64,000 bases of DNA from Polytrichum commune (lineage: Eukaryota; Streptophyta; Polytrichopsida; Polytrichales; Polytrichaceae): the NCBI GenBank assembly GCA_950295325.1, contig OX485807.1, positions 26,137,666-26,201,665 on the forward strand, in the 5' to 3' direction. Under the pieces are notes generated by a model that had not been told where the DNA came from, did not search any database, and saw only the letters and a list, made by a program, of their open reading frames with translations. How positions within the stretch are numbered: position 1 is the first letter of the stretch; each line of letters opens with the position of its first letter. This document shows, one piece after another, positions 60,368 through 61,966 of the stretch. Made by a program: the position numbers and the translations under genes.

Positions 60368-61966
60368 CATATACACAGACAGGTCATTCATCCCCCCAAC
60401 TAAAAACTTAGAAGGCCAAATAGTGGGCGATACCGCAGGATCTGGAGTATATAGCCCCAACAAAAATATACACATAGCCGAAAGATTACCGGGATACCAA
60501 AATATCCTTAGAGCATAATTGAATGCCATACTCATCGCTATCAAAACCATACAAACCACTCAAACAGACACACACATATTCACAGATAGCCTTAACAACA
60601 TATATTTAATCAGCAACCACATACAACACCCAACCTCACAACACCATCACCTAGACAAACTCCTCATAGCAGCCATAGTACACCAAATTTATTGGACACC
60701 ACACTTAATACACATACACAAAGTAAGGGCCCACATGGGCATCATAGGGAATGAAATAGCGGACACACTCGACAATGAAGGAGCACTTAAAGAGAAACCT
60801 AGCGCCACACCCCATATACATATAGCCCACGCCACACCATATTGGCTAGCAAGCTGCCCAACCGCCACGCGTGACGGAGCAATTCGAAATTTACACATAT
60901 TTGTAACAAAAGCACACAACTATCGAGAAGTAAGGACGGCCCAAAATAAATACCCATACGTAGATAAATGGCTATCAAACGACCAAATAAACCAAACACT
61001 CTCCAACCATTTCTGGAAAAACAATAAAATATCCAATGCCCAAATCACTCGAACCTTAAAATTCCGCTACGCCCAATACATGGGTAACCATAGAAAAAAT
61101 ATATTTTGGCTTCTCAAATTCCAAAACCCCAATTGCACACTATGCCACAAAAATGACAGAGACACATGGCCCCACCTACTGTCAATGTGTGAACACCCTT
61201 ACCTGAAAGGCCTAAGAATAACCAGCCACAACAAGGCGGTACACCTCATTACTCAAACACTACAAGCCAACAAACACACCATATACTACACATTAACAAA
61301 CGTAGGCACTCTCAACAATAATAGCCAAGAACAAACCGTCCTTGATTGGATAATAGAATGCACATGTACACAAACAAAATGCCAATGCCACACCAGGCTA
61401 AGACTAGACATTCTATGTATACTAGGAGCCCCAAACCACACCCCCACACCCCTCCTACCCGCATACACACACACAATACAATTCATTGAATTCACAAACT
61501 GCCACGACAGATTCCCCGAACAAGCCATCACACAAAAACAATCCAAATACGACCCCTTAATTCACTCCATACAAAACAAAGGCTGGAAAATGAAGCCCCT
61601 TATCACTATTACAGCAGGAGTAAGAGGGGCTATACACGAACAATCCATCAAGAAATTAGAAGAACTCAACATCTCAAAGACCAACATCAAAAAACTCATG
61701 CAAAACATACACCAAACTACGATTAATTACCTAACCTATCTCGTACTCAACAAAAGGAAACTTGACAATAAACAAACTACCATTGCACCTCCCTAGAAAT
61801 GGGAACTAAATATTAACTATCAACTAATAGAGCTCACCTCCCAAAAGAGGCATAACCCCTCATGTTACAACACGACTTGTCGTGTTTAGCATTTGGGTAA
61901 CAGACTCACATTCATGCTGGTACAAGGTATGGGTGTTATTTTTTCTTTTTCTTTTCTTTTCTTTTC
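60368..61966 (+). mobile_element. 5'-truncated non-LTR retrotransposon (LINE), RNase H + CCHC + restriction-like endonuclease tail
   Basis: A 1.6-kb insertion between perfect 12-bp direct repeats. It begins a few codons before the first RNase H aspartate, so reverse transcriptase and everything 5' is gone, as in typical incomplete target-primed reverse transcription. The coding part is followed by a 3' UTR of about 135 bases and a pyrimidine tail of TTTTC units instead of poly(A). The + strand is extraordinarily poor in G (3 of 60 bases at 60541-60600, 2 of 60 at 61441-61500). The protein order RNase H, CCHC, endonuclease is known from Dualen/RandI-like elements; the clade cannot be settled without the missing RT. 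Confidence 0.92.
60369..61796 (+). pseudogene. LINE ORF C-terminus: RNase HI domain, CCHC knuckle and PD-(D/E)XK-type endonuclease; one internal stop
   Basis: Upstream of an in-frame TAA at 60516-60518 the frame reads IYTDRSF..GSGVYSPNK..NILRA; downstream it is open for 425 codons. RNase HI residues: Asp in YTDRS (codon 60378), Asp in FTDS (60585), and the KVRAHMGIIGNEIAD block with the final Asp. The stop occupies the position of the catalytic Glu (RA-stop-LNAIL for RA-E-LNAIL). Then comes a zinc knuckle C206-x2-C209-x9-H219-x4-C224, counted from the codon after the stop. The restriction-like endonuclease follows: RLDIL (Asp297), FIEFT (Glu324), QKQSKYD (Lys340/343) and TAGVRGA. With RT missing and the stop present it cannot mobilise itself. 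Confidence 0.9.

Follow-up and report, generated by a model that had tools for sequence, protein, structure and literature searches.

The window, by which we mean the whole stretch of DNA analysed here (64,000 nucleotides of Polytrichum commune, contig OX485807.1 of assembly GCA_950295325.1, forward-strand positions 26,137,666 to 26,201,665), contains the 3' part of a non-LTR retrotransposon, a SINE on the opposite strand, and three further features (Table 1). The original prediction had placed here a LINE tail with a 425-residue open frame and a perfect 12-bp target-site duplication (TSD), and these details hold: the frame runs from 60519 to 61793 plus a stop codon in the window's list of open reading frames, the limits given for the element are exact to the base, and the two copies of the duplication directly adjoin them. 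Upstream, the frame can be followed to 60372 through a TAA at 60516-60518, and the 5' end of the copy coincides with the start of RNase H. This TAA occupies the position of the second catalytic RNase H residue (Glu), the RNase H motif YTDGS reads YTDRS, and in the nuclease RLD stands where relatives keep RPD. Because the RNase H Glu is a stop and RPD reads RLD, the window copy is a dead pseudogene fragment, and its domains are real. Searched by itself, the fragment gave nothing relevant in Pfam (only DUF2043, E 0.14) and no match in the PDB; its RNase H, knuckle and nuclease became significant only when full-length relatives were added.

Table 1. Positions and basis of the features of the window (counted from its first letter).
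Feature	Position	Strand	Basis
5' target-site duplication TACATAAGTGAG	60356..60367	+	Exact 12-bp repeat
5'-truncated copy of a probable dual-endonuclease LINE, 1599 bp	60368..61966	+	Bounded by TSDs; tblastn to L012 ORF2, 77% over 474 aa
RNase H domain	60372..60782	+	Aligned to L012 ORF2 residues 1832-1968, where Pfam RNase_H gives 4e-15
CCHC zinc knuckle CX2CX9HX4C	61134..61190	+	Invariant in 18/18 copies; aligned with the R2 knuckle
CxC-x4-CxC cysteine cluster, between knuckle and nuclease	61359..61388	+	Invariant in 18/18 copies and in 4 subfamily B rows of alignment A1
Predicted restriction-like endonuclease	61389..61793	+	hhalign with the R2 RLE of solved structures; catalytic residues in 16-18/18
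RLE motifs: RPDI (RLDI here); IEFT Glu; KX2KY; GVRG	near 61401-61412; 61488-61490; 61536-61550; 61617-61628	+	
Predicted structured 3' RNA end	61830..61942	+	RNAalifold and pair counts, 22 copies; model R1 112.6 bits, the window being a training sequence
Pyrimidine tail, (TTTTC)n-like	61936..61966	+	Read directly
3' target-site duplication TACATAAGTGAG	61967..61978	+	Exact repeat of 60356-60367
SINE, 267 nt, 3' part matching the LINE 3' RNA structure	43246..43512	-	R1 35.7 bits; 13-bp TSDs
Match of covariance model R1 within the SINE	43261..43372	-	35.7 bits, E 3.9e-5, outside the training set
TSD of the SINE AGTAATGTTATGA	43513-43525 and 43233-43245		Perfect 13 bp
Degenerate RT fragments	44162-44868	-	tblastn E 2e-16 and 1e-4 to 3e-4
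480-aa open frame	30805-32247	+	By eye
tRNA-Trp (cca) gene	13758-13829	+	

Full-length relatives, which the original prediction had held out as a possibility, were recovered from the same genome. In the 407.8-Mb assembly (seven large contigs of 42-78 Mb make up ~406 Mb of it), the window fragment matched itself and at least 98 other scored places, all of them at least 70% identical and most covering the whole query; behind these scored places stand 7372 first-look candidates, a figure that is not validated. A 30-base pattern for K-F-x3-Q-Y-M-G-N had 533 exact genomic matches against 0 for its reversed control, and a scan of viral contigs returned no relatives. Plastid psaB of this assembly, on contig C8, has its best PDB matches in 7ksq/7kux, 6l35/7xqp and 8htu (1671.8 bits, against 1634.3 for the next), which are photosystem I entries of Physcomitrium; this bears out the plant genome of the original prediction and suggests a moss. 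Some of the relatives lie in open frames of >2000 aa, and full-length copies measure 11.9-12.9 kb between their TSDs. Two of these copies, L011 and L014, are 98.6% identical over 11.9 kb, and dS in ORF2 is 0.005-0.011 among L009, L011 and L014; since these three are nearly identical, the family moved recently. The window copy belongs to subfamily A. A second subfamily, B (L034-L038), has a tail 39-43% identical to that of the window (four rows compared) and the same domain order from the end of the reverse transcriptase to the nuclease, within the DNA analysed, with an open frame of 2919 aa in L035.

Locus L001 is the window copy itself and L007 is the same copy as L025, and both were dropped from the copy alignment and from the 3'-flank counts; L024 and the near-identical L011 and L014 were also left out of the copy alignment, and alignment A1 omits L014 for its near-identity, and eight loci because stops interrupt the stretch concerned. 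TSDs of 9-14 bp were accepted in 7 of 25 copies (the window copy, L009, L010, L011, L012, L014 and L021), that of L009 being uncertain in repetitive flanks, while the remaining 18 either have their 5' end outside the DNA analysed or showed no repeat that was accepted. Two candidate repeats were discarded as misplaced, a second one of 12 bp in L012 and one of 10 bp in L008. No shared target motif was seen by eye in the 3' flanks of the 25 copies. The near-identical full-length copies L011, L009 and L014 (5' ends L031, L032 and L030) have differing leaders of ~16-60 nt between the 5' TSD and the ATG of ORF1, and their common sequence starts at or beside that ATG.

ORF1 (~1300 aa) had no meaningful Pfam match, and its C-terminal half has an RRM-like and coiled-coil look by eye. 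Its stop overlaps the start of ORF2 as ATGGATAG in all five junctions recognised among the 18 long loci (L009, L011, L012, L016 and L025), a set in which L009 and L011 are near-identical and the frame behind the L016 junction is broken. ORF2 (~2400-2600 aa) encodes, in this order, a 2A-like NPGP motif, an AP endonuclease (APE), a reverse transcriptase (RT), a chromodomain-like stretch, a PCIF1-like domain, RNase H, a CCHC knuckle, a CxC/CxC cluster and a predicted restriction-like endonuclease (RLE). Pfam recognised APE, RVT_1, PCIF1_WW and RNase_H in three ORF2 proteins: Exo_endo_phos_2 was above its curated cut-off in all three and Exo_endo_phos in two, and the RNase H downstream of the RT gave E values of 2e-16 to 1.3e-14 in 3/3. 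The catalytic E, D, N, D and H of the APE are kept in 14/14 copies that reach that far 5'. In the PDB the RT matched R2 best (62-103 bits), with 60 bits for 8c8j, which we take to be human L1 ORF2p, and RNase H1 was also matched in the search with ORF2. The founding Dualen family is reported to carry a cysteine protease; in the ORF1 pieces and ORF2 of the present family no cysteine protease was matched by Pfam at E<=1, a search that a divergent one could escape.

The N-terminus of ORF2 combines hydrophobic stretches with the NPGP motif, and GD[IV]xxNPGP occurs in 12 of the 18 long loci. When the StopGo/2A core was taken as (D/G/C/N)(V/I)ExNPGP, six of these loci had the canonical Glu (L010, L013, L015, L020, L024 and L025) and six had the core without it (L009, L011, L012, L014, L016 and L023). 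The canonical core has 261 genomic matches and its reversed control 0. Among the 68 matches of the PCIF1_WW model (PF12237) listed on contigs C1 and C2, 37 have a canonical core 4.0-6.3 kb upstream on the same strand, a pairing that drew on 100 listed 2A cores and compares with a shifted-control mean of 0.18. 2A/StopGo motifs of APE-type LINEs were reportedly described by Odon in 2013, a study cited in PMC12846837. The present family is like those LINEs in having G-D-[VI]-E-x-N-P-G-P close to the ORF2 start, behind a hydrophobic leader, whereas here the element is a probable dual-endonuclease one from a plant, and half of the motif-bearing long loci deviate at the E. In L009, L011, L014 and L020 the NPGP-bearing leader module stands twice in tandem at the N-terminus of ORF2.

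The tail had been described as joining RNase H, a CCHC motif and a C-terminal nuclease, and all three sets of motifs are present, the nuclease being recognised through profile homology. A search of the PDB with the A1 profile found R2 weakly (E 0.65), and a first comparison with the R2 RLE alone gave a probability of 1.2 and E 0.046. With the linker, knuckle, RHN and RLE of two solved R2 proteins on the R2 side (X standing for unprinted letters), hhalign returned a probability of 92, E 6e-7 and a score of 50.1, which was reached by 0 of 300 column shuffles (mean 14.6, maximum 25.1); for the RLE columns taken alone the score was 22.9, and the highest of 250 shuffles was 18.9. PD, KX2KY and GXRG are in register in the hhalign alignment, and the IEFT Glu is out of register with the Asp of R2 VVDVT. 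Of the 18 long loci, 16-18 retain PD, Glu, KX2KY and GVRG, and the order CCHC knuckle, RH(N), PD, KX2KY, GXRG, as a pattern written after the sequences were seen, fits 15/18 copies and 0/300000 shuffles. KX2KY is a motif described for LINE RLEs and holds their catalytic Lys, according to the available part of PMC5678591. By its profile homology to solved R2 proteins, the tail is predicted to be an R2-type RLE.

With an AP endonuclease before the RT and this predicted R2-type RLE after RNase H and the CCHC knuckle, the relatives do not appear to be ordinary L1 or I elements, and the domain order of the full-length ones supports the Dualen/RandI arrangement that the original prediction had named. 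Membership of Dualen/RandI was judged by architecture, and by that measure the family is very probably a dual-endonuclease LINE of this kind. Our main reading, to which we give a probability of about 0.85, is that the window holds a dead, 5'-truncated copy of an abundant and recently active non-LTR retrotransposon of the Dualen/RandI kind, which would move by the mechanism proposed below.

In a rough comparison, in which many pairs are near saturation and pairs are not independent, the median pairwise dN/dS was 0.05 in the RT, 0.10 in the RT thumb, 0.07 in RNase H, 0.06 in the CCHC knuckle, 0.12 in the RLE, 0.14 in the APE, 0.14 in the PCIF1-like domain and 0.24 in the chromodomain-like stretch, with 0.37 in the N-terminal stretch and 0.11-0.36 in other linkers. 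Of 153 pairs, 122 entered the comparison (overall dS 0.2-1.6; 63-122 pairs per domain); the columns came from a nucleotide alignment to L012, and the borders of the domains were set by hand. Every part of ORF2 looks constrained, and the RT, RNase H and knuckle look most so; the APE, RLE and PCIF1-like domain are clearly under the loosest spacers, though some adjacent linkers have values about as low (0.17, 0.18, 0.11).

These values bear on an alternative in which the family is a dual-endonuclease LINE that leaves all cutting to the AP endonuclease, its RLE having become structural or DNA-binding. TSDs of 9-14 bp at sites without a visible motif would suit APE-type insertion, and the target specificity usual for RLE elements was not seen; the catalytic residues of RLE and APE are, however, conserved to about the same degree and at a similar dN/dS, and we consider this alternative unlikely, although it keeps some weight. 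Very improbable, in our judgement, is an ordinary RNase H-bearing LINE of the APE type, from the I or L1 group, with a C-terminal extension other than a nuclease: an APE, and an RNase H after the RT, are typical of I-group LINEs and single-sequence searches of the tail found nothing relevant, but the comparison with the R2 knuckle and RLE exceeds all shuffles, and the tail keeps its PD, E and GVRG, as well as the KX2KY described for LINE RLEs, at a dN/dS of 0.12. A domesticated host gene or expressed pseudogene, for which the surviving 425-aa frame might speak, is refuted by the TSD, the hundreds of copies and the near-identical full-length copies at different sites, besides the premature stop and lost catalytic residues of the window copy.

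Two further parts of ORF2 lie between the RT and RNase H. PCIF1_WW matches 16/16 rows of alignment A4 at E<=1, with the best value (1.5e-13) in subfamily B; three subfamily A proteins score 25.5-27.4 bits (E 3e-6 to 1.1e-5), short of the curated cut-off of 31.1, and subfamily B scores ~50 bits (49-51 in L035). In the search of the genome with PF12237, the best 150 of 697 candidates are all above the cut-off, the best at 55.6, and most of these 150 should be B-type copies, given their scores (those examined are L034-L037); no PF12237 match was found in 14 control genomes. The middle domain of L035 matched only PCIF1, a cap-specific adenosine methyltransferase, in the PDB (6irv/6irx, E 1.2e-4 and 1.6e-3). 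The domain differs from PCIF1 in being embedded in a LINE protein and in its catalytic motif, which in PCIF1 is NPPF according to the accessible text of PMC8868631: NPPF is found in 0/16 rows of A4 and in neither L034 nor L037, and in its place subfamily B has HPPN or HPHN and subfamily A has [FHY]P[TK]D. Because NPPF is replaced in all copies examined, we read the PCIF1-like domain as non-catalytic. L034, the best PF12237 match, was considered as a host PCIF1 gene and rejected, since it is a LINE copy of subfamily B that is broken; the PF12237 matches examined included no identified host PCIF1 gene.

For the chromodomain-like stretch, the seven best PDB matches are all chromodomains (E 0.0098-0.12), and Pfam Chromo matches 4/16 rows of A4 at E<=1; this identity appears weaker than the PCIF1-like one. 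Chromodomain capture has been reported for oomycete LTR elements (PMC5348765, available sections). The most likely role of these two parts of ORF2 is not catalysis but binding, of chromatin by the chromodomain-like one and of capped RNA by the PCIF1-like one. A bolder and distinctly doubtful idea is that a captured PCIF1-like domain has changed from a methyltransferase into a non-catalytic reader gripping the element's own RNA by its capped 5' end, beside a chromodomain-like picker of chromatin sites, with both ends of the template held in an element that also has two nucleases, a 2A motif and a 3' structure. If true, such a grip on both ends would explain the existing full-length 12-kb copies and the unconserved 5' leaders.

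The last ~115 nt before the tail were folded from 22 copies by RNAalifold into a multibranch structure with a terminal hairpin, in which 97.4% of cells are paired and compensatory changes occur in 14/31 pairs. Double-change cells number 63 against 21.4 in shuffles, and all slid versions lie far lower. TTTTC-type tails follow in nearly all copies compared; the tail of L022 is (TTA)n, not (TTTTC)n. Rfam offered SNORD67 for the 3' end, a sub-threshold match (E 0.27) that we took as chance.

The covariance model of this 3' end, R1, also matched the SINE of the window (Table 1), which carries a B-box-like GGTTCGATTCC and a (TTTA)n tail. R1 also gave weaker matches: one, of 22.3 bits, follows the subfamily B copy L038, and two others, at 15 bits, look like chance. 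The genome holds at least 39 other near-full-length scored matches to the SINE (84-88%), with 2629 first-look candidates; two further copies score 51 bits with R1 and have no TSD of >=9 bp. Because tRNA detection found no tRNA in the three SINE copies, it is the B-box-like GGTTCGATTCC alone that suggests a tRNA-like head. The element near 43 kb is likely to be a SINE that borrows the machinery of the LINE. Contig C7 carries at 26238122-26238817 a tandem array of ~56-bp units like the SINE head, beside a full SINE copy.

In the mechanism that we propose, ORF2 would be made by reinitiation at the ATGGATAG overlap, and the 2A-like motif would free a short hydrophobic leader from the enzyme. The ORF2 protein would bind the 3' RNA structure, one endonuclease would nick the target, and the tail would prime reverse transcription; RNase H would remove the RNA, and the other endonuclease would aid the second-strand cut, leaving TSDs of 9-14 bp at unrelated sites. 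That the two endonucleases divide the labour in this way we infer tentatively, at somewhat less than even odds.

Dualen/RandI elements are non-LTR retrotransposons, known from Chlamydomonas, with both APE and RLE (PMC4640811 and PMC3636483, in the parts available). The family of Polytrichum commune resembles them in joining APE and RLE with RT and RNase H, in its simple non-poly(A) 3' repeats and in its paired SINE: according to the available part of a 2013 review, 8/8 green-algal RandI families have non-poly(A) 3' repeats, such as (ATT)n and (CTATTT)n, and SINEX is listed with RandI-2/-3/-5 in Chlamydomonas (PMC3747384). It differs in its length of ~12 kb, in having no Pfam cysteine protease and in its land-plant host, RandI being listed only under green algae in the table of the same review (PMC3747384). 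By description it would further stand apart through its 2A-like motif, its CxC cluster and the chromodomain-like and PCIF1-like regions that separate RT from RNase H. With R2 and other RLE-only LINEs it shares a homologous linker, CCHC knuckle, RHN motif and RLE with KX2KY; R2, however, has one ORF without APE or RNase H and is site-specific, whereas no common motif was seen at the insertion sites of the moss family. Plant L1 LINEs with RNase H are alike in their APE, RT and RNase H, and the moss family differs from them in its predicted RLE and in a TTTTC-type rather than a poly(A) tail; we know of no RLE in plant L1 LINEs. LINE-1 and LINE-2 of Physcomitrium are mentioned without the word endonuclease in the available text of PMC7466625.

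In the literature covered on Dualen/RandI, on PCIF1 and retrotransposons, on 2A motifs and non-LTR elements and on moss LINEs (most subscription papers and Repbase being outside its scope), the combination is not described, and neither the PCIF1-like domain nor the chromodomain-like stretch nor the 2A motif was found for Dualen/RandI elements. The two-nuclease architecture is already known; what is new, as far as we have seen, is the host (a land plant), the scale, the additional domains and the pairing of LINE with SINE. LINEs with two endonucleases are regarded as preserving the stage at which an AP endonuclease took the place of the restriction-like enzyme (PMC4640811, available part), and an abundant, recently active land-plant lineage that keeps both active sites would make the division of labour between the endonucleases testable. 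The family would also show a new domain capture in non-LTR elements, of a PCIF1-like domain and perhaps of a chromodomain-like one, and it offers a natural candidate for a plant 2A sequence and a LINE paired with a SINE, together with a covariance model by which the two can be annotated.

Elsewhere in the window, the degenerate RT fragments derive from a related LINE, and the 480-aa open frame looks by eye like a plant glyoxal/galactose-oxidase-like gene.
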